Source: a virus. From it: a stretch of 25,725 bases of DNA. A program made the translations under genes and the position numbers. Of this stretch, positions 383-11,922 are shown one piece after another. How positions within the stretch are numbered: the first letter of the stretch is position 1; every line of letters starts with the position of its first letter. The stretch covers positions 1-25,725 of IMG/VR virus record IMGVR_UViG_3300032223_001584; one strand, given 5' to 3'. The notes under the pieces were generated by a model. The model worked only from the letters and a program-made list of their open reading frames with translations. It was not told where the DNA came from and did no database searches.

Positions 383-862
383 CTATGTGGAAGTCTCTGG
401 CGTTGTTGCGCTTACATTAGCAGGCTGCACAGCCTCCGCTGCTACCTCGATCACCGGACCTGACGGCGCCATCAACCCCTGGCGCTGAGCATCGGCGAGC
501 GCGCGCGCGGTTCGCGCCTCGAGCTGTGCATCCGTCAACTCCGTCAGCGCCGCTAGCAGTGGCGAGCCATCCGCGTTGGCGAGTTTGGTTGGCAATAGTT
601 TGGAGAGCAGCGCGCAGAACGTGCGCGGGTCGGTGCGTCCGACGTGTTCGAGATACGAGGCGCCGCCGAGTTTATCGAAGGCGCGCTCCACCGCCTCGCG
701 AACCGATACGGTGAGAGCGTTAGGCGTGCCTTTGGCTCTGCCGATAGTGCGCTCTCCGGCCTTGAATGCGTGCTCCTTTAGTGCTGCGGGAATCATCCGC
801 CTATCATCCGCCTTTTCTAGGCGATCTTCACCAATTTTTTTTCCTGCGTAAAATCCTAGCAC
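383..862 (-). CDS. Phage protein with KGTPN motif, possibly terminase small subunit-like
   Basis: I choose the GTG at 862 (159 residues) because a near-perfect Shine-Dalgarno, GGAGGTGAT, sits 7 bases before it; the in-frame ATG at 796 has nothing comparable. The protein has a basic N-terminus, then GRAKGTPNALT at about residues 40-50, a helical stretch with SYLEHVGRTDPRTFCALL, the motif SKLLPTKL, and a variable Ala/Thr-rich tail. From memory, KGxPN followed by helices and a KLLP element is common in small phage DNA-binding proteins, some annotated as terminase small subunits or DUF5681-like. No large terminase subunit is next to it, so packaging is only a guess. It is transcribed away from the plus-strand island across a shared regulatory region. 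Confidence 0.65.
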   Translation of the reverse strand: MLGFYAGKKIGEDRLEKADDRRMIPAALKEHAFKAGERTIGRAKGTPNALTVSVREAVERAFDKLGGASYLEHVGRTDPRTFCALLSKLLPTKLANADGSPLLAALTELTDAQLEARTARALADAQRQGLMAPSGPVIEVAAEAVQPANVSATTPETST

Positions 863-971: not shown

Positions 972-1313
972 ATGAAAACCACCCTGTCCACCTCCCAAGC
1001 CGCTAACCTACTTAAAGCCGATACAAACGCTAGCTGGTCGCGTTCTGGTGCCTATGCTCTCGTTGAGTATCTCGAACAACTCGAAGAAGATATTGGCTCC
1101 GATATTGAGTTCGATATTGTCGCAATCCGTTGCTACTATTCAGAGTTTGGATCAGCCGTACAGGCCGCTGTTGCTCAAGGATTTGAGCCCAACCCCAACT
1201 TGGGACAAGAGCCACAGAGCCAAGAGGATAAAGAAGCCGATGCTCTCGCTTGGCTACAGGATCACACTCAGGTGATTGAATTTGATGGCGGCATCATTAT
1301 TGCCAACTTCTAA
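972..1313 (+). CDS. Conserved small phage protein of unknown function
   Basis: A 113-residue acidic protein. It contains GAYALVEYLEQLEEDIG (about residues 26-42), EFDIVAIRCYYSEF (46-59), and a C-terminal ALAWLQDHTQVIEF followed by DGGIIIANF. I recognise this arrangement from many phage early regions (a helix, an EFD-V-A-I-RC strand and a closing DGG strand), but I know no assigned function. There are no membrane segments and no catalytic motif. The start follows an A-rich tract (ACAAAAAAATG type) with no Shine-Dalgarno, as in the other genes of this island. It is the first gene after the divergent operator array and probably leads the transcript that ends at the terminator near 2111-2143. Confidence 0.8.
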   Translation: MKTTLSTSQAANLLKADTNASWSRSGAYALVEYLEQLEEDIGSDIEFDIVAIRCYYSEFGSAVQAAVAQGFEPNPNLGQEPQSQEDKEADALAWLQDHTQVIEFDGGIIIANF

Positions 1314-1351
1314 CCCCCTCACCCCGTACAACCTACAACCAAAAACACAAA

Positions 1352-1579
1352 ATGAACCTAAAATCCATTCTCGAGTTCCTCCTGGCATTCGATCCTAATT
1401 CACAAATCATTGAAAACGCCTGTCTATGTGAGTTTTCCGCTGAGGACAACACGCCCACAATCCATCTCACGCTGTGGAGAGGACATAATCTCTCAGACAT
1501 TCCAGACACCGGACTAGAGGTTGCGTGTGAGGGATTTAACGATATCGGTAGAACCTACGGCCTCCAATCCAAAAACTAA
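1352..1579 (+). CDS. Hypothetical small phage protein (75 aa)
   Basis: I do not recognise this protein. It begins MNLKSILEFLLAFDPNSQII, an amphipathic helix followed by a DPNSQ turn like those in small phage proteins that begin with a LL..D.N..V element. It continues with an acidic middle and ends GFNDIGRTYGLQSKN. There is no transmembrane segment. It lies 38 bases after the preceding gene and 2 bases before the next, so it probably shares their transcript. The leader is A-rich (AACACAAAATG) without a Shine-Dalgarno. Operon position and sensible composition support it as real. Confidence 0.65.
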   Translation: MNLKSILEFLLAFDPNSQIIENACLCEFSAEDNTPTIHLTLWRGHNLSDIPDTGLEVACEGFNDIGRTYGLQSKN

Positions 1580-1581
1580 AA

Positions 1582-1716
1582 ATGATAGACATCTCCCTTC
1601 CCGAGATAGCCGCCTTTCGGCACAAACTCCACGTGTTCATGGCGTTGTGCCTCATGTTCGCGTTTCTGAGCGTGTACATCCCATTCATCATAGACAACCT
1701 AAAGCCTAGAAAGTAA
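1582..1716 (+). CDS. Small single-span membrane protein (44 aa)
   Basis: Translation from the ATG at 1582 gives a 44-residue protein starting MIDISLPEIAAFRHKLHVF and ending DNLKPRK. Residues about 18-37 (VFMALCLMFAFLSVYIPFII) form one hydrophobic span, flanked by basic RHK before and KPRK after. It starts 2 bases after the preceding stop and ends 2 bases before the next start, so the four genes from 972 to 1943 are tightly packed. The function is unknown; tiny membrane proteins of this sort are frequent in phage early operons. Confidence 0.62.
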   Translation: MIDISLPEIAAFRHKLHVFMALCLMFAFLSVYIPFIIDNLKPRK

Positions 1717-1718
1717 GA

Positions 1719-1943
1719 ATGAAGGCTATTATTAAAAGACCTATCGGCATTATGGTTGGCTCCGATGTTCGCAATCCTATCGGAGGCCACTTTGTGACAA
1801 TCCCCGTAGGAGAAACGATTTCTCTAGAAGAAAGCCGAAACCTTAGCTGTTCGGTTTGGATTACATGGCAAGGCCAGAGGGGCAAGATTGAATGTGGTCA
1901 GATCAGTAATCTTACACGTGACGGGAGGATTCAGCTTTTATGA
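1719..1943 (+). CDS. Hypothetical small beta-rich protein (74 aa)
   Basis: I do not recognise a family. The sequence alternates short hydrophobic strands (KAIIKRPIGIMVG, HFVTIPVGETISL, CSVWITWQGQ) with turns and ends GQISNLTRDGRIQLL, suggesting a small beta barrel. It has no membrane segment and no obvious metal site. Its stop overlaps the start of the next ORF in an ATGA arrangement at 1940-1943, a hallmark of translational coupling that supports both genes. Confidence 0.62.
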   Translation: MKAIIKRPIGIMVGSDVRNPIGGHFVTIPVGETISLEESRNLSCSVWITWQGQRGKIECGQISNLTRDGRIQLL

Positions 1944-2083
1944 GCGCGCGCCTCTACCGATCGGGCGGAGCTTGGGTAGTGCGAGCACTAGCCGTCCACA
2001 CCTTCGCAACCGCAAAAGAAGCGCGACGATGGGCCAAGGCAAACCGCCTTCGCTTGATTCGATCGGATCAATCGGACCGTTAA
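1940..2083 (+). CDS. Hypothetical small basic protein (47 aa)
   Basis: This 47-residue ORF starts in an ATGA overlap with the previous stop. It reads MSARLYRSGGAWVVRALAVH and then contains FATAKEARRWAKANRLRL. The FATAKEARRWAKA helix is an amphipathic basic segment, and the N-terminal half looks like two short beta strands. The fold and charge suggest a nucleic-acid contact, but no family is identified. It is the last gene before the terminator at 2111-2143, which supports it as the end of the operon. Confidence 0.55.
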   Translation: MSARLYRSGGAWVVRALAVHTFATAKEARRWAKANRLRLIRSDQSDR

Positions 2084-2110
2084 CCAAAACCAAACGCCAC
2101 GCCGAACAAG

Positions 2111-2143
2111 GGCGCACTCCTAACGGGGTGCGCCTTTCTTTTT
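2111..2143 (+). terminator. Rho-independent terminator of the first plus-strand operon
   Basis: GGCGCACTCC (2111-2120) pairs with GGGGTGCGCC (2125-2134), nine Watson-Crick pairs and one G-T, closing a TAAC tetraloop. It is followed by TTTCTTTTT. The stem lies 28 bases after the stop at 2083. Confidence 0.85.
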
Positions 2144-2147
2144 GATC

Positions 2148-2171
2148 AAAAGCGTCCTCAAAAGCGTCCCC
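2148..2171 (+). repeat. Tandem 12-bp repeat
   Basis: AAAAGCGTCCTC and AAAAGCGTCCCC stand head to tail directly after the terminator, differing at one base. The core resembles the GTGTCCTC repeats near 4000-4200 only partially, and no function is apparent. Confidence 0.5.
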
Positions 2172-2233
2172 AAGAAACGCCACCAAATAACCTTCATAAA
2201 AGCCCCCAAAAAGCCTCGCACCCCCTTCCCGCT

Positions 2234-2344
2234 ATGGCCTATGCCACCAAACTCCAGACCCTACTAGAACCCCGCCCCAAGCCACGGGAACCGCCGCCTC
2301 CAAAGAGACGCGACAACCCTAACCCTGACCCGCGACCGCCCTAG
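2234..2344 (+). CDS. Tentative proline-rich peptide (36 aa)
   Basis: An open frame from ATG 2234 to TAG 2342-2344 encodes MAYATKLQTLLEPRPKPREP followed by PPPKRR and a Pro/Asn/Asp-rich tail. Eleven of the 36 residues are proline, which partly reflects the strongly C- and A-rich composition here, so this may be chance. It lies between the terminator and the tandem hairpins and has no Shine-Dalgarno. Listed because no other gene explains 2172-2385. Confidence 0.3.
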   Translation: MAYATKLQTLLEPRPKPREPPPPKRRDNPNPDPRPP

Positions 2345-2386
2345 GGAATGCGCCCAAAACCGCACTCACCCTCTGTGGAAGAGTTC

Positions 2387-2519
2387 AAAACCAAAATCAA
2401 TAAAACCAAAATCCAAAACCCATTTTACTCGGAAAATGGGGACCCAGATAAAAAGTTTGAAAACCAAAATTGCCTGAACTAAAACCCGAAACCCTTTTTG
2501 CTCGGAAAAAGGGGACCCA
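2387..2519 (+). repeat. Two tandem covarying hairpins in an A/C-rich leader
   Basis: Hairpin 1 is CCCATTTT (2419-2426), loop ACTCGG, AAAATGGG (2433-2440). Hairpin 2 is CCCTTTTT (2492-2499), loop GCTCGG, AAAAAGGG (2506-2513). Both stems are 8 bp and perfect. The fourth pair is A-T in one and T-A in the other, a compensatory change, while CTCGG in the loop and GACCCA immediately 3' are identical. The copies are 73 bp apart. AAAACCAAAAT recurs at 2387, 2402 and 2460. The pair lies directly upstream of the gene at 2552 and is most simply a structured RNA leader or processing element. Confidence 0.7.
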
Positions 2520-2551
2520 AAACCACAACCAGATACACCCAAACAGAAACT

Positions 2552-2920
2552 ATGAACTTCATTGCCAACTCTCACTTTCGGCGGCTGCGCCGCATCAAGC
2601 ACGACTACCGGTACGCGGCGGAGAGCCGCTCCCCTGCCGAGTGGATCAAGCAGATCAATACCTTGCCGGAGACGCATCGCGCTATTGTGGCGCGTGTGGT
2701 CTGGTGGGACTGGTTTGGAGAGCGGACTTTCTCAAACCGCGTTGCGGAGTTCGACCACTGGCTCTACGAGCCGTTGTGTCCAATTGCGAATGAGCCACCA
2801 CCGGAGGCCCTCATGAAATCGATTGTTTCTATCGGGTACCCGATGGAGATCGCGCAGCGCCGGTTCCGGCGCAAGTTCAATGATAGTTCCCTGCACCAGA
2901 TCAAGACTCCTAAAATCTAA
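2552..2920 (+). CDS. Hypothetical phage protein (122 aa)
   Basis: I start this at ATG 2552 because the upstream frame runs through the hairpin repeats. The protein opens MNFIANSHFRRLRRIKHDYR, strongly basic, then has AEWIKQINTLPETHRAIVAR, a Trp-rich VVWWDWFGERTF, and a second half ending GYPMEIAQRRFRRKF. Predicted to be helical and basic, it may bind nucleic acid, but I recognise no family and assign no function. It is followed 4 bases later by the membrane-protein gene at 2925. The tandem hairpins end 32 bases before its start, so it is the most likely target of any regulation by them. Confidence 0.65.
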   Translation: MNFIANSHFRRLRRIKHDYRYAAESRSPAEWIKQINTLPETHRAIVARVVWWDWFGERTFSNRVAEFDHWLYEPLCPIANEPPPEALMKSIVSIGYPMEIAQRRFRRKFNDSSLHQIKTPKI

Positions 2921-2924
2921 AACT

Positions 2925-3290
2925 ATGAGCACATCACGTTACGCTAATACAAATTATCAACACCGGCAGATCAAAGAACTTCAATCGGTCATCCCCGCAT
3001 GGGAGCCGCCGCTCTCGAGTCCCTCGATCCAGCACTCCCGCCCGGAGGCTGGAGATGTTGGGCTCGACACAATACGCATCCCGCTTGCAGCGGTGCAGAA
3101 CTACCGTAAAGCTTCGCTACGCGCCCGCTACGCGGCGCTGTTCGCGCTCGCGGCGGTGCTGCTTATGGCCGATGGCATTGCTCTTGTGACGTGGACCGAT
3201 AGCGTTGTGGAACATTACGTTTTTGCATGTCTCGCAATCTCAGCGGAGCTTCTCCTGATAGCCTGCGCTATTAGCTGCCGGAAGCTTTAG
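2925..3290 (+). CDS. Hypothetical two-span membrane protein (121 aa)
   Basis: ATG 2925 lies 4 bases after the previous stop. The first 65 residues are soluble and polar, including QHRQIKELQSVIPAWEPPL. Residues about 68-89 (RYAALFALAAVLLMADGIAL) and 97-117 (HYVFACLAISAELLLIACAI) are two hydrophobic spans joined by a short acidic loop, with basic residues just before the first. This resembles small inner-membrane phage proteins with a cytoplasmic N-terminal domain. No family is recognised. Its last 20 bases overlap the 3' end of rusA, which converges from the other strand. Confidence 0.6.
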   Translation: MSTSRYANTNYQHRQIKELQSVIPAWEPPLSSPSIQHSRPEAGDVGLDTIRIPLAAVQNYRKASLRARYAALFALAAVLLMADGIALVTWTDSVVEHYVFACLAISAELLLIACAISCRKL

Positions 3291-3828
3291 CCTCTTGTAG
3301 CCATTCTGGAGCGTCGTCGGGGGTATCCATGCTCGGCGGCGCGTCCAGACCTTCCCGCGGGGCTCCTGAGGCGTCTATCGACACCTCTACAACCGCGCCT
3401 TCACCACCAGGCCGACACCAGTACTTCCTAATCATACCGGCGGACACTCGGCAATCATCTCCCCCAAAGAGGCCAACCTTCGTTGCCTCATCTAGCACCA
3501 GCTTGTCCAGGTTGTCCCGGTCGGGTTTGTGCGTGTGCGGTTTTCCCCAGCGGTCGGAGACCTTGGTGGGAAAAAAGAACGTCACATCCACCCGCAAGGC
3601 TATCGCCTTATGCAGCAACCCCCCCGCAATCGCGTTTAAAGCCTCGCTAGCGGCCCTGCGGACCGCTCCCTGCCACGATGATACTGCTGGCGTGATATTG
3701 GAGATCACACGGCCCTGCACGAAGCGCGGACGCGGCTGGGATTTCGGCTCACCGCGCACGGTCAACCTAATTAGCAACTCTCCGGCGCCTGCGGCGCACT
3801 CCGCACTTAATTTTGATTGTGACTTCAT
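3271..3828 (-). CDS. rusA: RusA-family Holliday junction resolvase
   Basis: RusA enzymes are small metal-dependent endonucleases that cut Holliday junctions; phages use them to resolve recombination intermediates and branched DNA before packaging. This 185-residue protein has the hallmarks: GEPKSQPRPRF near residues 26-36, then KPDRDNLDKLVLDE (101-114) carrying the acidic pair D103/D105 and basic K109, and GGDDC (122-126) supplying the third acid. It is longer than Escherichia coli RusA (about 120 residues), with an extra acidic C-terminal tail rich in Pro and Asp (DAPPSMDTPDDAPEW). ATG 3828 begins about 30 residues before the core and has no clear Shine-Dalgarno. It lies beyond the putative origin from the primase-helicase gene and is the last minus-strand gene of the replication block. 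Confidence 0.93.
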   Translation of the reverse strand: MKSQSKLSAECAAGAGELLIRLTVRGEPKSQPRPRFVQGRVISNITPAVSSWQGAVRRAASEALNAIAGGLLHKAIALRVDVTFFFPTKVSDRWGKPHTHKPDRDNLDKLVLDEATKVGLFGGDDCRVSAGMIRKYWCRPGGEGAVVEVSIDASGAPREGLDAPPSMDTPDDAPEWLQEAKASGS

Positions 3829-3913
3829 AATACTTGTTTTCTGCGTATGCTTAATTTTTTACCAACTTTGAGCACTGCCGCAACTTAAGGAAGGAAGCGA
3901 AGCGTTCCACGGT

Positions 3914-3961
3914 CCTCATACGGATCCTAGCGTAAGCGGTAAAGGATCCGAATATATGAGG
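3914..3961. repeat. Long inverted repeat beside the putative origin
   Basis: CCTCATACGGATCC (3914-3927) is mirrored by GGATCCGAATATATGAGG (3944-3961); the arms match fully apart from four extra bases in the right arm and are separated by 16 bases. It lies 86 bp upstream of rusA and adjoins the hairpin at 3966-3995. Confidence 0.65.
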
Positions 3962-3965
3962 ATAC

Positions 3966-3995
3966 GGGGAACTAGGGGACTATTCCCTATTCCCC
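3966..3995. repeat. Strong hairpin with one bulge
   Basis: GGGGAA-C-TAGGG (3966-3977) pairs with CCCTATTCCCC (3985-3995): 11 bp with one bulged C and a 7-base loop. No T-run follows on either strand, so it is unlikely to be an intrinsic terminator. Its place between an inverted repeat and the GTGTCCTC array fits an origin structure. Confidence 0.65.
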
Positions 3996-4002
3996 TTATA
4001 TA

Positions 4003-4200
4003 GTCCTCGTGTCCTCAAATGAGTTAAATCGAGCATTTTCAACAACTTACGCGTGTCCTCGAGACCCCACAAAAAATGCAAAAAAGGACACGCACATTTT
4101 TTAAGCATTTTTACGTGTCCTCAAGCGTGTCCTCTGAGGACATCGAGACTCTATTTACTCTGTTGGACTACGGTGTCCCCGTGTCCTCAAACATGTCCTC
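4003..4200. other. Iteron-like GTGTCCTC array, candidate replication origin
   Basis: Exact GTGTCCTC occurs at 4009-4016, 4053-4060, 4115-4122, 4127-4134 and 4181-4188. One-mismatch copies are at 4173-4180 (GTGTCCCC), 4193-4200 (ATGTCCTC), and on the minus strand at 4136-4143 and 4084-4091. Many are preceded by AC or GC and followed by AA or GA. Some neighbours are 12 bp apart. The array extends into the last codons of the primase-helicase gene, the usual place for a phage or plasmid origin relative to its initiator. AT-rich tracts lie between copies. The gap 3829-4167 holds no gene. Confidence 0.6.
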
Positions 4201-6642
4201 GGCGTTATTTTGACCATTTTTATCTTTCGACCCGCCTAGCGGCTCGGATTTGGGTCCAAACTGCGCTTTCCAGGCGTTGGATCTGGCCATTAAAACGATC
4301 TCGGCAGTGTCCGCATCAAAGTAATAATCCTCCCACTCAGGGGCGGTATTGTACGCCCCGGACGCAATAGTCACCCCAGCCTCGTCCTGAGAGAGCACTC
4401 CGCCCGGCACGTCGAGATAAGTCTTCGACTTACTACCCCGAACAGCACACGGCACAAGCAACCCCTTTATCAATGCCTCCTCTACAAGGTGCCCAAATTC
4501 CCGCCAGCCTACACCTCGAAGTATTGGGGGCAGCTCGTTGCGGCGTTTATAGAGCCCATTCGCCGCATTCTTGCCTCCCACGGCGTATGGGTGCAGTGCC
4601 GAAGCGGCCTGCTGGATTGCGTAAACCATCCACGCCACACGCTCATTCACGTTCACTGCGGCATAAGAGTCAACAGCGGTGATGTCCTCCAAAAGGCCGA
4701 TCCCATTGCGGAGCAAAGTCCGCTCTCCCTGCAAAAGACCATGAATATTCGCCTTTACAATCCCAAATTTCCACATGGCTCCACGCTTTGGAGTCATGCT
4801 CATGGCCTTCATGCGCCGCTCGTAATCGCTAGCGTGGAACATTCCAAAATTGATCCGAAAGTACGACGGGATCGCACTCGCCCCACGGATAGCACTCCTA
4901 AGCTCCTCGAGCGACCTGAGCGGCTCGTTGGACTTGCGGATATGGTGGTTAATCAGAAGCGCCGCCCCCAGCTCCCCGCAGACGCGGTGCGCCTCACGCA
5001 TCATCTCGGCAATCACGACATTCGAGTTCTCATCGCCATGTGACACACTGTTGAGTGTATCAATCGCCACCAGCACCGGCGGCTCTGGTAGCGCCTTCAT
5101 CAGATCCAGCATCCGGCGCCACTTGTCTGAGGTGACCGTCCCACCGGTCTTAAAATCCCTCTCTGTGAGCGGGAACGCACCCCCAATGTTCGTCATCGGC
5201 AGCACAATAAGCCTGTCCCCGGCTTGGTTGATGAGGCCGCCCTGATCGAGCTGCTTAATGCGAATATGCATCTCAGTCTGGCTGTCCTCACACAGAATCA
5301 GCACCGCCGTGCCGCCCCCACGAATCTTCTGCCCGCACCAGTAATGATCTCGGCCCTTCTCCCAAGATGCGACCTTCAGCGCCAAATCAGCCACAAGGAA
5401 AGTCTTGCCGCTCCCACCTTCACCCACAAACAAGTGCGGCTCACCCTTGAGTACGAGTCCCTCGACGAGTTCCTCGTGTACTGGCACCGGGTCCACAATC
5501 CAGCGGTGTGCAGACCATGCTAGCAAGCCATTCTCGCCAATCGGCAAAGCCTCGGCCTGAGCCTCTGTCCTCGACTTTTTCTCTGTAAACGCACCCTTTG
5601 AGGACACGTCTTGACGGCACAAAGCTTCCCATTCTGTCCGCACTCTTGTCTCGGGCCACGCTGGTTTCATGTGTGCAGAAACCCATCCGCTTAAAGCCTC
5701 GAAGGCTTCCGCCTTGTCCATGTCCCCGCGCCGAATACAGTGGATGTAGTGCCCGGCAACGCGGTTGAACTCCCCAAAACGAGTGACGATCTCGCCCCCG
5801 GCATGAACATCTCGATTCAGCTCCACCGGCTCAAAGTCCTCGCCTGCGTTGGTGCTGTCCTCCCCAAAGAGTCCCCGAATCACGTTATTCCCGTCCCCTA
5901 AGGACATCTTGGTCCTCACCGCCCACGGGGCGGGTTCAACTTCCTTAACTTTGTCAGCAAAGTCCGTGTGCAAGCAATCTCCCGTGATTTTTTCACGCCA
6001 CTCTACTCTGCACGGCTTCGCCATGTCGCCTTTGCCGTGTACTGTCCCCGCAATTCTTACTGGCTGGTGCGAGCGCCCAAACGGATTGCTCTTCACCCCG
6101 CGCCCCAGCATCAAGTCACCACCGGCCTTCTCGGCTATCTCATGCCGCAGGTTAATGACGCCTTCGATGTCAGCGGTCGGCTCAATCTTCCACCAGGCAT
6201 GACGCTTTGGTGTACCGGCCTCGGTAGTGCCACCAGACTCCACCACTAGATCCGGCACGCCGATGTTCTCTGCCACCCACGCAATCCGCTCGTCAGTGTT
6301 GCCGGTATCAAAGTCAGCCACAACCGTCGTAAACATCGAAATGTTCGTCGATGTCGCTTTTGGCGCCTTTAGCACACACGGCACAATAAACGAGGCCACG
6401 GCATGCTGCCCCCACCGGCGGCAGTGTTCCACCGCTGCATTCACCCAGTTGATATCCACTGCCGGCTCAAAGAAGAACTCCTCCCGGAATGTGCCTTCTT
6501 GAGAAGTACCTTTCTCCCCGATGCCTCGGAGACACACGTATGCTCCGGGCTGGAAGTCCAATTTCCCGAAGATAAAAGACAAGTGTTCCCGAACCTGATC
6601 CTCATCGAAATGGACCAGGCTTTCAATTTTAGCTGTCATCAT
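4168..6642 (-). CDS. Primase-helicase replication protein (AEP-like primase plus RepA-like helicase)
   Basis: This 824-residue protein looks like a fusion of a priming and an unwinding domain. The N-terminal part has TVVADFD (106-112), consistent with the hhDhD metal site of archaeo-eukaryotic-type primases, followed by VVESGGTTEAGTPKRHAWWK (133-152) and RSHQPVRIAGTVHGKG (190-205), where S, H and R match that superfamily's layout. The C-terminal half is a RecA-fold hexameric helicase of RSF1010 RepA type: Walker A GEGGSGKT (407-414), Walker B VLVAIDTLN (523-531), INHHIRKS (564-571) and RGAS (586-589). It would prime and unwind phage DNA. The start overlaps the previous stop in ATGATGA (6639-6642), so it is translationally coupled to the Cas4-like gene. 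Its last codons contain origin-like repeats. Confidence 0.88.
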   Translation of the reverse strand: MMTAKIESLVHFDEDQVREHLSFIFGKLDFQPGAYVCLRGIGEKGTSQEGTFREEFFFEPAVDINWVNAAVEHCRRWGQHAVASFIVPCVLKAPKATSTNISMFTTVVADFDTGNTDERIAWVAENIGVPDLVVESGGTTEAGTPKRHAWWKIEPTADIEGVINLRHEIAEKAGGDLMLGRGVKSNPFGRSHQPVRIAGTVHGKGDMAKPCRVEWREKITGDCLHTDFADKVKEVEPAPWAVRTKMSLGDGNNVIRGLFGEDSTNAGEDFEPVELNRDVHAGGEIVTRFGEFNRVAGHYIHCIRRGDMDKAEAFEALSGWVSAHMKPAWPETRVRTEWEALCRQDVSSKGAFTEKKSRTEAQAEALPIGENGLLAWSAHRWIVDPVPVHEELVEGLVLKGEPHLFVGEGGSGKTFLVADLALKVASWEKGRDHYWCGQKIRGGGTAVLILCEDSQTEMHIRIKQLDQGGLINQAGDRLIVLPMTNIGGAFPLTERDFKTGGTVTSDKWRRMLDLMKALPEPPVLVAIDTLNSVSHGDENSNVVIAEMMREAHRVCGELGAALLINHHIRKSNEPLRSLEELRSAIRGASAIPSYFRINFGMFHASDYERRMKAMSMTPKRGAMWKFGIVKANIHGLLQGERTLLRNGIGLLEDITAVDSYAAVNVNERVAWMVYAIQQAASALHPYAVGGKNAANGLYKRRNELPPILRGVGWREFGHLVEEALIKGLLVPCAVRGSKSKTYLDVPGGVLSQDEAGVTIASGAYNTAPEWEDYYFDADTAEIVLMARSNAWKAQFGPKSEPLGGSKDKNGQNNAEDMFEDTGTP

Positions 6643-7415
6643 TTTTTGTAGTTAAAGAACTGTGTTGTGTGTACTGCGTGTGCTCGCTTCTCTTTCTGCC
6701 AGCACCGCTTCGCGTAGTCGCAGAAGCGACAGCGCCAATCGGTTTCCTCTGTTGAACAGCGGGGTAACTGTTCTGGGTGATTGCTTTCTACTACCCGCAA
6801 AGCGCGGTCGCTGGCTTCTTGTGCTGCCCTCATGTCTGGCTCTCCCAGCTCGGCAAACACTTCACCGGTATCGCGGTTCATGGCCGTGAAGAGATACCCT
6901 TCCAGCCCAAGATAAGCGATGTACGTCTGCATTTGGACGTAATACAGTGGTTTGCTTTTGGCAATGCCCTTGTCTTTAGTGTCGTTCCAGCTCTTGTTGT
7001 TGAGAGCCTTGTTCTCCCAGACAAGCGGCACCTTGGTGATGCCGGGACCGGCATGGATAATGCCGTCGCAGTGTCCTCCCAGCTTGCCCTCGCAAGCAGT
7101 GAATCCGATCTGGCCGCCTCCGGGTTTCTCTACTTGCAGGTCATACCCCGCCATTCGCATATAGTGGGACATTCGGGACTCACCGTCGTGTCCCATGTCG
7201 AAGATGCGGTAGAGATCGGCAGAGAACTTAGGCTTGGACATCTCGTCTCTGTCGGTTGCATGAAACTCATACCCAAGTGCTCGCTCACAATGATGCCCCC
7301 ATCTACTTGCCCCGAGATAAGTGCGTCGGTCTTCTCTGGATCTTGCGATGGCGAGTGCATTTGAGATGGCGGCTTCAATTTCCTCGTTGTGAAAGGACTT
7401 TGGTGGTTGAAACAT
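6639..7415 (-). CDS. Cas4/RecB-like PD-(D/E)XK nuclease with probable iron-sulfur cluster
   Basis: The 258-residue protein shows the Cas4/RecB nuclease layout: HHCERALGYEF (41-51) with the first cysteine, a conserved His in MGHDGE (74-79), catalytic D117 in GGHCDGII, E134-x-K136 in LVWENKAL, and QMQTYIAYLG (161-170) as the QxxxY motif. The terminal cysteines C220, C229, C232 and C238 (RCRFCDYAKRCW) with C43 could hold a 4Fe-4S cluster, as in Cas4 and AddB. Related phage enzymes are exonucleases that generate 3' ends for recombination. No CRISPR array or other cas gene is present, so recombination or replication is the likely role. The gene sits between small coupled genes and the primase-helicase, whose start overlaps its stop. 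Confidence 0.88.
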   Translation of the reverse strand: MFQPPKSFHNEEIEAAISNALAIARSREDRRTYLGASRWGHHCERALGYEFHATDRDEMSKPKFSADLYRIFDMGHDGESRMSHYMRMAGYDLQVEKPGGGQIGFTACEGKLGGHCDGIIHAGPGITKVPLVWENKALNNKSWNDTKDKGIAKSKPLYYVQMQTYIAYLGLEGYLFTAMNRDTGEVFAELGEPDMRAAQEASDRALRVVESNHPEQLPRCSTEETDWRCRFCDYAKRCWQKEKRAHAVHTTQFFNYKK

Positions 7416-7416
7416 A

Positions 7417-7599
7417 TTATTTACAGAACATCCAAATCAATGCGGTTTCGTAAACTGCAAGCCTAAGCTCGATACCCATTGCCTCAAAAGTGGCGTTCAG
7501 AATCGCTTGTATCAAAAGAGATACAAGCAACACTTCTGTGAAAGCAGCGGCTCTTTTAAGCCGTCCGCGAATCGGAGTCTCTTGAATCTTTTTATTCAC
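7417..7599 (-). CDS. Hypothetical small membrane protein (60 aa)
   Basis: A 60-residue protein starting at GTG 7599 inside the last codons of the upstream gene (8-base overlap). It has a basic N-terminus (MNKKIQETPIRGRLKR) followed by hydrophobic AAFTEVLLVSLLIQAILNA (about 18-36) and a second weaker apolar stretch at the C-terminus (VYETALIWMF). It ends 1 base before the Cas4-like gene, so it belongs to the same message. No family is recognised. The unusual start and short length leave some doubt, but the packing argues for a real gene. Confidence 0.55.
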   Translation of the reverse strand: MNKKIQETPIRGRLKRAAAFTEVLLVSLLIQAILNATFEAMGIELRLAVYETALIWMFCK

Positions 7600-7813
7600 G
7601 TTCTTGAAGTCCTGTTAAGTTCTCCGGGCCGTCGGCTACAATCCCGCACAATTCTCCAAGAGCCGCGTCGCGAATAGCCTGAAGCTGCATGTGCAGCTTA
7701 TCTGCGTGAATCGCAATTCTAAAATGTATTTTCCGTTCTTCCTCCAAAATCTTTTCCAGCTCCACTCGGCGCTGATATTCTTCCTGCCATAAGGCATGAT
7801 AATCTTGGTTCAT
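7592..7813 (-). CDS. Hypothetical coiled-coil protein (73 aa)
   Basis: The protein begins MNQDYHALWQEEYQRRVELE and is almost entirely helical and charged through residue 50, with heptad-like spacing of Leu and Ile; the tail AALGELCGIVADGPENL is less regular. Its ATG overlaps the preceding stop by 4 bases and its own stop is overlapped by the next gene. It is probably a small accessory or structural helix protein of the replication operon; no function can be assigned. Confidence 0.6.
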   Translation of the reverse strand: MNQDYHALWQEEYQRRVELEKILEEERKIHFRIAIHADKLHMQLQAIRDAALGELCGIVADGPENLTGLQERE

Positions 7814-7962
7814 TTGTTTTGTAAAGTTGCCAACTTGTTTCTAAGCTCTTCAACTTCAAGCTGAAGGCTCTGATGTTTTAGCCGAAGAATGGCTAACTCT
7901 CTGGCAATTCGGTCCCGGTCTTCTCTAAGCCTACTAATCTCTGCTTCGTCGTGGATGCTCAT
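7810..7962 (-). CDS. Hypothetical coiled-coil protein (50 aa)
   Basis: I start this at ATG 7962 rather than further upstream because AAAGGAGGG stands close before it and the ATG overlaps the preceding stop as ATGA. The protein, MSIHDEAEISRLREDRDRIA and onward, is one continuous charged helix with leucines at heptad spacing (LAILRLKHQSLQLEVEELRN), a strong coiled-coil candidate. It overlaps the next gene by 4 bases. It may pair with the neighbouring coiled-coil products at 7592-7813 and 7959-8411; this is inference from sequence type and adjacency only. Confidence 0.62.
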   Translation of the reverse strand: MSIHDEAEISRLREDRDRIARELAILRLKHQSLQLEVEELRNKLATLQNK

Positions 7963-8411
7963 TTCCCGCCCTCCTTTGCTGCTGCGATGAGTGCGTCTGC
8001 CATTTTTAAGCACATGTTCGCGCATTCATCGACATATGCCGCAGGATTATTTTCGGCCATAAATATCGCCGCAATCTCTAGCCGCGAGGGTTCTGGGCGG
8101 GTGCGCTCAAGCTGTGCTTGTTTAAGCTGTACTGCCTCAACACGCGCCTCATGCAGCTCTTTAAGTAACTCATCAATCCGTTTTTCTGCTGCTTCTATCT
8201 TCTCGCGCCCCACCTTGATCCATAGATCGCGGTCTGTCTGCATTGAGTCGTTAAATTGCTGCAACTCCTCCAGCTTATTGCGCTTTAAGTCATTGAGTTG
8301 CAGCAAAAGTTCCAGTCTGTCGGCGGATTCCTTTAGGATTTGATCGGTGATTGGTATTGGTCCTAATGGCATTATATTTCTAATGCATTCAATAAGTTCT
8401 TGTGTCGTCAT
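7959..8411 (-). CDS. Hypothetical phage protein with coiled coil (150 aa)
   Basis: Residues 25-105 form a long charged helix with regular leucines (RLELLLQLNDLKRNKLEELQ, then a Lys/Glu-rich RIDELLKELHEARVEAVQLK). The C-terminal 40 residues (RLEIAAIFMAENNPAAYVDE, then CANMCLKMADALIAAA) are a compact helical module I have seen at the ends of assorted phage hypotheticals, where it follows variable N-termini. The module includes two cysteines but no complete metal site. No function is known to me. It begins 9 bases after the 30-residue ORF at 8421-8513 and overlaps the next start as ATGA. Confidence 0.7.
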   Translation of the reverse strand: MTTQELIECIRNIMPLGPIPITDQILKESADRLELLLQLNDLKRNKLEELQQFNDSMQTDRDLWIKVGREKIEAAEKRIDELLKELHEARVEAVQLKQAQLERTRPEPSRLEIAAIFMAENNPAAYVDECANMCLKMADALIAAAKEGGK

Positions 8412-8420
8412 ATTGTGTTT

Positions 8421-8513
8421 TTAAGTTGTCAAGGAATCCTTGACTACTGGCTCCTCCCATTTCCCTAGCGTTCTGAGAAACGCCTCTGCGCGTTGGCGAG
8501 CGGTGGTCATCAT
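8421..8513 (-). CDS. Tiny hypothetical protein (30 aa)
   Basis: The ORF reads MMTTARQRAEAFLRTLGKWE and continues EPVVKDSLTT. Its first ATG overlaps the previous stop in ATGATGA (8510-8513), giving two possible in-frame starts. The amphipathic RQRAEAFLRTLGKW helix, the lack of any other gene here and the coupling on both sides support expression. No function is known. Confidence 0.5.
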   Translation of the reverse strand: MMTTARQRAEAFLRTLGKWEEPVVKDSLTT

Positions 8514-8647
8514 TCCGTTTGCTCCTCTCCTTGTTTAAGTGCGCACTCTGGGCAGAACCATCCGTCCCAAATGTCTTGTTCCATTAGTGCATCGCATTCT
8601 GGGCAGAAATGCTCTGGTTTCTCATCGGGGTTCAGGTAAGCAATCAT
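8510..8647 (-). CDS. Small zinc-ribbon protein (45 aa)
   Basis: Translation from ATG 8647 gives MIAYLNPDEKPEHFCPECDA followed by an acidic linker and WFCPECALKQGEE. The two CPEC knuckles (C15/C18 and C33/C36), 14 residues apart, make a minimal zinc ribbon. Such miniature proteins in phages probably bind nucleic acid or a host protein. It begins 1 base after the helicase stop and ends overlapping the 30-residue ORF. I am fairly sure it is real because the metal ligands are intact and the packing is tight. Confidence 0.72.
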   Translation of the reverse strand: MIAYLNPDEKPEHFCPECDALMEQDIWDGWFCPECALKQGEEQTE

Positions 8648-8648
8648 A

Positions 8649-10280
8649 TTATTTAGCGGTTATTTTGGTTCTAATTTTGTTTTCATTGAAATTCCACGTG
8701 AGTAAACATGATGCACGGTATCTGCTCATGTTGAACATGTTAGCTCCATTGCCAAGAGTCTGAATCTGTTTTGCTGTGGGCGGCAGATTAAGCCACGACC
8801 TTGTCTTGCGGCACAAGCTCGTATCTCCGTTAGCGCGAAGAAAATCATCTGCGCTAGAGATCACCAATATCTTATCATCACTCATATCCAACTTTTGAAC
8901 ACGTTGTCCCTCGACAGCCCCCACGGCCCAGAAGCTTCCGCCAAAAGCGATCACCGAGGCCCAGGCTTTCATACCGTTGGCTACCAGCACAAGGCCATCA
9001 AACAAAGACTCCCACTGGAACGGAGAGGCGTCTATCAGCTCCACCTCGGTCATGCGGAACTCTTCAAGGATGCCCTTGCTAACTTTGTCTTCGTAGCCGC
9101 AGATCGGGCAGATCATCGTCGAGATCGGCAGACTGATGCCGCAGCCTTTGCATTTCTTGCTGGGAGCCTCGCCGGGTTCAGCGTCCTTGGCCTTGGTAGC
9201 AAGGCGCACCTCGGCCTCAAGGTTACCATGCGTCACCAGGCTATAGCCGAAGTCCATAATGAGGCAGTCGCTTTTGGTCTGCCCGGGATACCGCTCTGGG
9301 TCCAGCTTGCGAAGGCCGCGCCCTACCATCTGAAGCATGACACTCTTGCTCGAGCATGGCCGAACCAGCACCACACAGGACACCGGCTGACAGTCCCAGC
9401 CCTCGGTGAGGACGGCCACGTTTAGTATCACCTGATACCGGCCCTCATCAAATCCCTTGAGTGTGGCCGCTCGATCTGCCCCGGCCATCTCTCCGTGGAC
9501 AACTACGGCAGCAACACCGGCCTCTACAAACGCTTCGCACAAATGCTCAGCGTGAGCCACGGTAGCGGTAAACACTACGGTCTGTCGTTTGCCGGCTTGC
9601 GCTTTCCATTCTTTGACGATGCGGTCGTTGAGCGGACTCTTGTCCATGACCTCGGCAACCTCATCCATATCGAAGTCGCTGGTCTTTGGAATCCGATCTA
9701 GCTCGGCTTTGAGTCCCAGATCCATCACGATGCCACGGGGCCGTACAAGAAAGCCGCCCTGCACCAGTTCCCCGAGTTGAATAATGTCTGCAACGGTTGG
9801 GAAGACTGATATTAACGCTTTCCGGTCTGATCGCTGTGGCGTAGCCGTTAGACCCAAGATATGCCCCTGCGGGTTGCGCTCACGAAATTCCTCAATGATC
9901 CGCAAGTACGAGGCAGCAGCAACATGATGGGCTTCGTCAACTACAAGCAAATCAAGGTCTTGCGGCATGGTTGCAAGATTGCGTTCTTTGACAAGAGTTT
10001 GAACCATACCAAATGTCGCGTGCTGTCCCCAGGTCTTCCGATCTGCAGTAAAGAGATCGCTACGCTTCTTTGGGTTCACCGCCGTGAAAGTCTTCCGGTT
10101 CTGGTTTACCAGCTCGTCTCGGTGCTGAAGTATCAGCGCCCTCTTGTACCGGCTTGCAGCAGCGGAAAGCATTACTGTCTTTCCTGCGCCGGTGGGAGCA
10201 ACTCCGAGTGCTGCGCCGTATTGATCTAGTGCCGAGTGGCACTTCTCTACAAATAATTTTTGTCGTGGTCTAAGAATCAT
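8649..10280 (-). CDS. Superfamily 2 DNA helicase with C-terminal zinc ribbon
   Basis: I take ATG 10280 (543 residues), since RPRQKLFVEK is the usual opening of phage DEAD/DEAH-like helicases. Motif I APTGAGKT (28-35), DEAH box (115-118), motif III LTATP (144-148), motif V TEGWD (292-296) and motif VI QMVGRGLR (317-324) are all present, so ATP-driven translocation should be intact. A Cys4 knuckle pair KCKGCG and CPICG (C377, C380, C391, C394) follows, then a poorly conserved domain. This is the SSL2/RAD25-like type common in phage replication modules, likely acting on DNA during replication or recombination. An in-frame GTG at 10367 would add 29 residues, translated through the structured leader; I consider that less likely. 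Confidence 0.9.
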   Translation of the reverse strand: MILRPRQKLFVEKCHSALDQYGAALGVAPTGAGKTVMLSAAASRYKRALILQHRDELVNQNRKTFTAVNPKKRSDLFTADRKTWGQHATFGMVQTLVKERNLATMPQDLDLLVVDEAHHVAAASYLRIIEEFRERNPQGHILGLTATPQRSDRKALISVFPTVADIIQLGELVQGGFLVRPRGIVMDLGLKAELDRIPKTSDFDMDEVAEVMDKSPLNDRIVKEWKAQAGKRQTVVFTATVAHAEHLCEAFVEAGVAAVVVHGEMAGADRAATLKGFDEGRYQVILNVAVLTEGWDCQPVSCVVLVRPCSSKSVMLQMVGRGLRKLDPERYPGQTKSDCLIMDFGYSLVTHGNLEAEVRLATKAKDAEPGEAPSKKCKGCGISLPISTMICPICGYEDKVSKGILEEFRMTEVELIDASPFQWESLFDGLVLVANGMKAWASVIAFGGSFWAVGAVEGQRVQKLDMSDDKILVISSADDFLRANGDTSLCRKTRSWLNLPPTAKQIQTLGNGANMFNMSRYRASCLLTWNFNENKIRTKITAK

Positions 10281-10286
10281 AAAAAA

Positions 10287-10361
10287 ACGCAACGGCTGTT
10301 TCACAAGGTTAAATGAACCAACCTTCCCGCAGGGTCTCCCTGCGTAGCATGGCTGTTGCGT
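10287..10361 (-). promoter_or_regulatory. Structured RNA leader (three-way-junction fold) before the helicase gene
   Basis: On the minus strand, ACGCAAC (10361-10355) pairs with GTTGCGT (10293-10287), enclosing two perfect hairpins: CGCAGGG-AGA-CCCTGCG (10344-10328) and AAGGTT-N9-AACCTT (10325-10305). Seven T residues (10287-10281) then run directly into the helicase ATG, so the outer stem could also act as an attenuator. A 13-codon ORF beginning MLRRETLREG (10350-10309) lies inside. The remaining gap 10362-10452 also contains a weaker CACCCC/GGGGTG hairpin and no gene. Confidence 0.6.
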
Positions 10362-10452
10362 GTGCACCCCTCGTACACGGGGTGGGTTGTACCGAAGACA
10401 GACTTTGCTGGCTAGTTCGTTTTTGTTTGGAACCAGAAAAGTCTGCGAATTG

Positions 10453-11055
10453 TTACTTCATCCAAGGCGGCTTCACAGCACCGACAGTCCCTCCAGGCGC
10501 GGGGCTGGACCTCGGCGCCACCGGCGATGCAGTTGCTCCCGTTCCTGAGATGGACTCAGCTCCTCCTTGGGCGAGCGTGTAGCTTTTGTAGCCGTTGCTT
10601 TTGAGATTAGGACTGGTCCACTCTTTTACCTCGTTCTTGTCAGCGCGACCATCCTTGCCCTTCTGGATACCGATGACGATAAATACTGACTTTGCAGACA
10701 TTGCCATTGCAACCTCTTGAATACCGGCATCGTTGAACGCATTGTACGTCTCAGGGCTTGACGGGTTAAACACGCCGATGGACTCCATGATACGGGTAAT
10801 CGTACCCACGGCCATTTCCTTTGCTTTCTCGGAAGTCTTGTCATCCCACGGATCACAGACTACTGAGAATATACGACGCCGGTCGTATTTTCCGCCATAA
10901 ATAATTAGTTCCAGGTCCAGATACCGCCCTCCGGTCGATTGGGAATACTTGATGTCGCGGACCGCGATGACAACTTTTGCAATTGTCCCGGCAGGAATCA
11001 GATCGAACGCTGCGTTACTGCCGGTGTTTGATGTTTCGGGTGAAAAGAAGGACAT
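10453..11055 (-). CDS. DUF669-like phage single-stranded DNA-binding protein
   Basis: The 200-residue protein has the layout of phage DUF669/SSB-like proteins: LIPAGTIAKVVIAVRDIKYS (19-38), STGGRYLDLELIIYGGKYDR (39-58) and RRRIFSVV, consistent with an OB-like fold. These are followed by a helical middle with AVGTITRIMESIGVF and a disordered tail rich in Gly, Pro and Ala that closes GAVKPPWMK. The aromatic C-terminal tip after a flexible linker recalls SSB proteins, although the usual acidic residues are missing. In phages this family sits next to the P-loop ATPase and helicase, exactly as here. It probably coats single-stranded DNA. The gene starts 3 bases after the ATPase stop. Confidence 0.78.
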   Translation of the reverse strand: MSFFSPETSNTGSNAAFDLIPAGTIAKVVIAVRDIKYSQSTGGRYLDLELIIYGGKYDRRRIFSVVCDPWDDKTSEKAKEMAVGTITRIMESIGVFNPSSPETYNAFNDAGIQEVAMAMSAKSVFIVIGIQKGKDGRADKNEVKEWTSPNLKSNGYKSYTLAQGGAESISGTGATASPVAPRSSPAPGGTVGAVKPPWMK

Positions 11056-11058
11056 AGT

Positions 11059-11922
11059 TTAGTTATTGGTTGGAAGTGAAGTCTGAAGGTTGTCGATGCG
11101 CTTACCAGCGCGGATTTTGGCGATGATCTTTGCAAGGTTTGGTTCCTCGATCATCTCAAGGCATCCAGAACGGTCTTTTGCTGGAAAGCCGTAAGGATTC
11201 TGTTCGTGACATACGAAGGCCCGGTACAGGCTCCCGTCCTCGGCTTTTAGGTTCGAGAGCGTTAGCACCTCGTCGAAGACCCCAGGCAGTTCCCTGCCGG
11301 TCTTAGAACCTTCGATCTGCGGCTCCCAGAAGACTCGCTTCAGCTCGTCTTCGTCTCGGTTCAGGATGCCCACCATGATCACGCTTTTGGGAGCGTGCTG
11401 TAGGTGCGTGATCCAGCGCATCATCTCACGGCCTAGCAAGCCGTAGGCTCCGCGCATGTCGGGCTTGCCGGTGCGCTCGCTAAGAGCCTCTGGCTGGGTC
11501 TGTGCCCACTTGAAGCATTCGCGTGCTGCGACGGTGATGGAGTCCACGAACACAATGTCGTAATGCTCGATCTCCTTGGCGTCACCGAACATCTCGCAGA
11601 CTTGATCGTACATCGCCTTTGAGTACGATCCGTTCGAGTCTGACGGGTCAGGCCCGCCAATGTAGAGCGCGGCAGCCCGCGCCAACTCCCAAGGGTGGCA
11701 TCCTACGCTTCCGGAGACGGCTCGGATGTCGAAGACATTATCCTTTACCCAATCCTTGCCGAGAGCCAGCGTGCCGGCCTCGAAGTCAATAAACAGCGTC
11801 TTCTTGGGATCGAGCGTGCGAGCCTGTGTGGTCTTTCCGGCCCCAGCGGGACCGAAGATACACATCGTTACTTTGTTGCGAGCCGCCTTGAGGCGGTCAT
11901 CTGCTTTTGTGAATTTAAGCAT
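11059..11922 (-). CDS. P-loop ATPase, Sak4-like recombination protein
   Basis: A 287-residue RecA-type NTPase (AAA_24 group). Walker A is GPAGAGKTT (24-32), followed by TLFIDFEAGT (42-51); Walker B is YDIVFVDSIT (121-130). The region SVIMVGILNRDEDE and the downstream strands fit the RecA core without a helicase C-domain. Phage proteins of this kind, neighbouring DUF669 proteins, include Sak4-type single-strand annealing or recombinase-like factors; this assignment comes from domain and context. It begins inside the last codons of the previous gene (8-base overlap), so the two are translated together, and it precedes the ssDNA-binding protein, its likely partner. Confidence 0.85.
   Translation of the reverse strand: MLKFTKADDRLKAARNKVTMCIFGPAGAGKTTQARTLDPKKTLFIDFEAGTLALGKDWVKDNVFDIRAVSGSVGCHPWELARAAALYIGGPDPSDSNGSYSKAMYDQVCEMFGDAKEIEHYDIVFVDSITVAARECFKWAQTQPEALSERTGKPDMRGAYGLLGREMMRWITHLQHAPKSVIMVGILNRDEDELKRVFWEPQIEGSKTGRELPGVFDEVLTLSNLKAEDGSLYRAFVCHEQNPYGFPAKDRSGCLEMIEEPNLAKIIAKIRAGKRIDNLQTSLPTNN

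Follow-up and report, generated by a model that had tools for sequence, protein, structure and literature searches.

Conserved direct repeats in the non-coding DNA of phages are of a known kind, two examples being pac boxes (PMC4737164) and the start-associated sequences, SAS (PMC3203893). In phage SPP1 the pac region contains direct-repeat boxes around the cut, and in the SPP1/SF6 arrangement (pacL-pacC-pacR, boxes A, B and C) these are recognised by the small terminase (PMC4737164). The SAS/ESAS elements of cluster K mycobacteriophages are conserved repeats of unknown function, placed mostly upstream of start codons (PMC3203893). The localized nick sites of phage tf and of the phiKMV-like phages (TACT/RTGMC; CGACn5CCTA/CTCCGG) are spread along the genome, with 14 of them in tf (PMC3517423). 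The genome architecture of tf was described as similar to that of Pseudomonas phage PaP3 (PMC3517423), whose cos is the 20-nt sequence GCCGGCCCCTTTCCGCGTTA (PMC7672466).

The element described here was found in a complete IMG/VR record of 25.7 kb from a podophage, the whole of which is referred to as the window. It resembles the SPP1/SF6 pac in that direct repeats surround one locus; the SPP1/SF6 boxes, however, lie at the small-terminase gene, whereas the present 63-bp unit is located 1.6-3.3 kb off, behind an opposite operon. The SAS elements are likewise conserved phage repeats, but those occur many times in a genome and are linked to genes. The present repeat does not follow that pattern of numerous copies each preceding a start codon: a single locus contains two copies, in some phages without any gene after them. 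With the nick sites of tf and the phiKMV-like phages only the letters TACT(C) in the conserved core are held in common, and the core occurs at one locus in contrast to the genome-wide sites of tf. The large terminase (TerL) of this phage group shares about 40% identity with its tf counterpart, and a stretch partly similar to the PaP3 cos, CCCCTTT(TT)CCGnGT, occurs on the minus strand; most of the genomes tested had a better site than this match, and the similarity was dismissed as chance-level. No Rfam family reached its gathering score for the window element. The repeat family thus appears to be undescribed, in agreement with the earlier note on this DNA, since the database and literature searches made returned no described family.

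Copy 1 of the repeat occupies positions 2384-2446 and copy 2 positions 2457-2519, both 63 bp on the plus strand, scoring 56.8 and 51.4 bits with R1, the sequence-only model of the repeat that was used to scan contigs. The two are 79% identical at a spacing of 73, far beyond chance in the window (0.01 matches expected). The earlier note had seen two tandem hairpins. Both are real, at 2419-2440 (stem CCCATTTT/AAAATGGG) and 2492-2513 (stem CCCTTTTT/AAAAAGGG) on the plus strand, each with the perfect 8-bp stem and the 3' GACCCA that had been reported; the repeated unit, however, is the 63-nt direct repeat, of which the hairpins form only the 3' third. The loop, given as an unchanged CTCGG, does contain these letters in both copies, but it is 6 nt long (ACTCGG and GCTCGG) and its first base differs. 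Compared with dinucleotide shuffles, the two copies showed no unusual folding (z = -0.73 and -0.66). The window holds 7 perfect 8-bp stems with loops of 3-8 nt, at 5 places, versus 2.7 expected, and two such stems within 2101-2560 arose in 0.35% of shuffles; as the copies are repeats of each other, these two stems are not independent events.

Relatives were collected from viral contigs by searches with the core pattern, the helicase and the putative small terminase subunit (TerS). The locus carried two copies in 18/18 fetched contigs that encode the putative TerS and reach the locus, 1.6-3.3 kb from the TerS gene and on the opposite strand; contigs with the putative TerS and no repeat match end before the locus. 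Six near-complete genomes (G001, G003, G009, G010, G055 and G056) gave two R1 matches each and no others; two of them, G003 and G009, can be circularised through a 127-nt overlap of their ends. Three copies were present in G004, two before small plus-strand genes and one after the terminator of those genes. No locus that was visible in full had fewer than two copies. Their orientation was constant and their spacing varied, the extremes being 73 bp and more than 700 bp. First and second copies tend to fall into separate sequence clusters, which suggests an old duplication with separate roles. In one relative, L030, the copy at 7029-7089 shares bases with the 3' end of a gene that we read as MazG-like and is directly followed by the terminator CCCGTGGGCGCCTGACGCTCACGGGTTCTTTTTT.

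The repeat was lacking in phages with other packaging genes. In two complete relatives (G044 and G066) the portal and coat proteins are homologous, and the repeat and any homologue of the putative TerS or of TerL are missing; five contigs (L383, L387, L388, L389 and L392) encode a related TerL, with no such TerS and no repeat. In G044, judged by the sequence only, no analogous long tandem repeats were evident at a comparable non-coding place. R1 gave no match in those portions of EBPR podovirus 1 and MW202785 that were retrieved. An origin as a host repeat was rejected, the strict core pattern being absent from all 84,980 bacterial and archaeal species genomes searched. Taken together, the element is very probably a two-copy direct repeat of 63 bp whose primary sequence is conserved and which keeps one orientation at one non-coding locus of podophages of about 37-40 kb with P22-like portals, the hairpin being local to the window phage. 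This provides a well-defined cis element, with its conserved positions listed, for a large group of uncultured freshwater podophages.

The conserved sequence of the repeat comprises AAAACCAAAATCG, CATTTCTCAAAA and, above all, the 3' ACTCGGAAAAAGGGGACCC. In alignments A1 and A2 the most conserved core of copy 1 was ACTCGGAAAATGGGGACCCA (2427-2446, plus strand), with its homologue in copy 2 at 2500-2519 on the same strand. Conservation is strongest in the 3' half of this repeat, which many phages have in common, and this supports the sequence-specific recognition proposed in the earlier note. Selection for the hairpin, also proposed there, did not withstand comparison with relatives. Over 21 copies the eight pairs of the stem were formed in 60.7% of cells, as against 60.0% with shuffled partners, and sliding the partner arm gave similar values; RNAalifold returned no consensus structure for 29 copies on the plus or the minus strand. 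In most relatives GTCAATTT or GTGAATTT stands opposite AAAAAGGG, leaving positions 1, 4 and 5 unpaired, and many copies have no stable hairpin. The 5' arm varies while the 3' ACTCGGAAAAAGGGGACCC is kept; stem bases thus change in homologous phages without pairing, the observation which the earlier note had itself said would refute it. The A-T to T-A swap at the fourth pair had been taken for a compensatory change. In most relatives this position is A opposite A; the 3' base became T in copy 1 of the window and in one copy of L040, and the 5' base became T in copy 2 of the window, and the apparent swap is more plausibly the result of two single-base changes, each on a different arm, starting from an unpaired A.A. 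With no more than two paralogous copies to compare, what looks like a compensatory change inside one genome can be misleading. A small protein-coding gene was likewise discarded, with stops in 9-16 of the 21 copies in every frame and no codon periodicity. In a wedge model, the copies were not exceptional in intrinsic DNA bending.

The locus is flanked by a plus-strand operon of small genes, which ends in a terminator, and by the minus-strand replication operon. In the relatives read, the order was the putative TerS gene on one strand, the small plus-strand genes, the strong terminator GAACAAGGG..., in most of them a short block, copy 1 and copy 2, followed by variable small genes or none and then by the convergent operon. 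In the window the intrinsic terminator of the upstream operon (2108-2137, plus strand) is kept in relatives and marks the left edge of the non-coding locus. The block, (TTT)AAAAGCC-N17-TATGGC (TTTAAAAGCC-N17-TATGGC; 2209-2238, plus strand), has a spacer of 17-18 nt between TTTAAAAGCC and TATGGC in relatives and is possibly a promoter of unusual type. Six relatives (L040, L026, L011, G030, G055 and L315) carry an extra conserved block around GAAGATTYYSCTAAASCC upstream of copy 2, and in several of these copy 2 is immediately preceded by a palindrome, CCGATT-N5-AATCGG; the window has neither.

In the window the gene 386-796 (minus strand) is assigned as the putative TerS by its position next to a methyltransferase and TerL only; in G009 the gene order is TerS-methyltransferase-TerL-portal (P22-like). 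The protein is small and very strongly conserved (YLVHVGRTDPRTFCALLSKLLPTKLANADGSPLLAALTELTDAQLEARTARAL). It matched no Pfam family and no solved structure, the TerS of the EBPR podovirus is not similar to it, and its AlphaFold model (pLDDT 48) was too poor for a fold search.

We infer that the repeat is a two-site, cis-acting element of double-stranded DNA, recognised by its sequence and read by a protein. It is tempting to speculate that it is the packaging-start region recognised by the putative TerS, a reading which we regard as tentative, though the most likely of those weighed. The two copies would then be candidate binding sites for the TerS encoded at the distance given above, an arrangement akin to the boxes that recur in other pac or cos regions. 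The repeat is co-inherited with the putative small terminase, as would be expected of a packaging site, and it was retained while the replication and recombination genes were exchanged between the window clade and G003; this exchange, together with the absence of the repeat alongside other terminases, points away from an origin bound by an initiator and fits a site of the packaging enzyme. The linked small genes co-inherit too, however: the neighbouring small plus-strand genes 1940 and 972 show the same association with the repeat, so that the association is not separable from simple linkage, and all three (terminase, small operon and repeat) may be inherited as a single unit. Pac and cos sites are usually found in or beside the small-terminase gene. 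Here an opposite-strand operon stands between the repeat and the putative TerS gene, which argues against packaging, as do contig ends that do not fall consistently at the repeat, the variable copy spacing and a TerS assignment that has neither sequence nor fold support. If the reading is true, it would supply a packaging site for this terminase type and would allow virion ends to be predicted from metagenomes.

Tandem operator- or promoter-like DNA sites for the variable plus-strand genes (2552 and 2925 in the window), bound by a host or phage regulator or a sigma factor, are an alternative that is almost as likely. In most lineages an ATG follows the end of copy 2 by some 9-60 nt (32 nt in the window), a small gene between the copies in L101 and L305 makes each copy precede a gene, and the promoter-like block recurs upstream. 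The last copy, however, is still well conserved in four relatives with no plus-strand gene after it (L022, L013, G056 and L012), and no additional copies occur elsewhere in the near-complete genomes. Neither a sigma-70-like promoter nor a minus-strand terminator was consistent among the copies, and both were rejected as the conserved feature. The narrower proposal of the earlier note, a translational operator for 2552, is unlikely because the repeat persists where no gene follows and because 2552 is missing in most relatives, its only homologue among those examined being in L101; a search of viral contigs with the 2552 protein found no relatives at the sensitivity of that search. Iteron-like sites of a phage replication origin would agree with a single non-coding locus of direct repeats whose GC is below that of the genome. 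This explanation is nevertheless unlikely: clades that differ in the initiator/helicase module still carry the repeat, so that linkage to an initiator was not found, the locus has no GC-skew switch, and transcription units converge there. That the repeats form a recombination boundary, serving as homology for the exchange of small gene cassettes, hardly comes into question; different small genes do stand between or after the copies in close relatives and the recombinases Sak4 or RecT are encoded, but a single copy was never seen where the whole locus was visible, and the conservation is sharper than a recombination substrate needs. Such a boundary is the least probable of the explanations weighed; two others take up the hairpins themselves. 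A structured RNA or hairpin family was rejected on the pairing at shuffled levels, the missing consensus fold and the Rfam result. An RNA element of a plus-strand leader, with short lineage-specific hairpins before a constant ACCC, would still draw on the window hairpins and on CCGU-GAAA-ACGG in G055_2 and G001_2, CCCC-A6-GGGG in G030_2 and CUCC-GAAAAA-GGGG in L041_1. In addition, the 3' segment has a slight folding advantage over shuffled sequence on the plus strand (mean z about -0.6), which is not seen on the minus strand (-0.1). The slight excess and the different short hairpins of other copies are weak evidence for RNA structure, and with no excess pairing in the proposed stem and many copies devoid of a stable hairpin we consider a leader RNA quite unlikely. 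Its special form, in which the presence of a stem is selected and not its bases, so that unrelated short hairpins arise in each lineage while the flanking ACCC and the upstream sequence stay fixed, is very improbable. Equally little weight is given to the window hairpins as intrinsic terminators of the minus-strand replication operon ending at 3271. Hairpin 1 read on the minus strand is followed by TTTTGGATTT and was scored terminator-like, but the hairpins are absent in relatives, the region has 3 terminator-like sites versus 2.3 expected by shuffling, and termination would account for the local variant only and not for the conserved repeat. As both window copies acquired a perfect stem, the first of them terminator-like on the minus strand, the hairpins possibly have a local role in the window phage.

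The window encodes tail spikes, P22-type ejection proteins, an endolysin, Sak4, a helicase, a Cas4-like exonuclease, a primase/helicase and RusA (minus strand), and its plus-strand cluster of small genes extends over 972-3290. No host was identified via the primase. The window clade and the G003 clade have in common the structural genes, the putative small terminase and the repeat. The whole replication/recombination module differs between them (3271-11922 in the window versus 3431-9201 in L133, from G003), with Sak4, Cas4, RusA and primase in the window clade and O-like, DnaB-like, RecT and exonuclease genes in the G003 clade. In the replication region of the latter, the protein encoded at 4096-4647 of L133 matches a PHROG annotated as 'ferredoxin' (phrog_3704, E 4.8e-31). 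In the window two operator-like palindromes, GTACGC-AAAAAAA-GCGTAC and GTGCGTAGTTTGTACGCAC (880-898 and 925-943), lie where the putative small terminase gene and gene 972 diverge.
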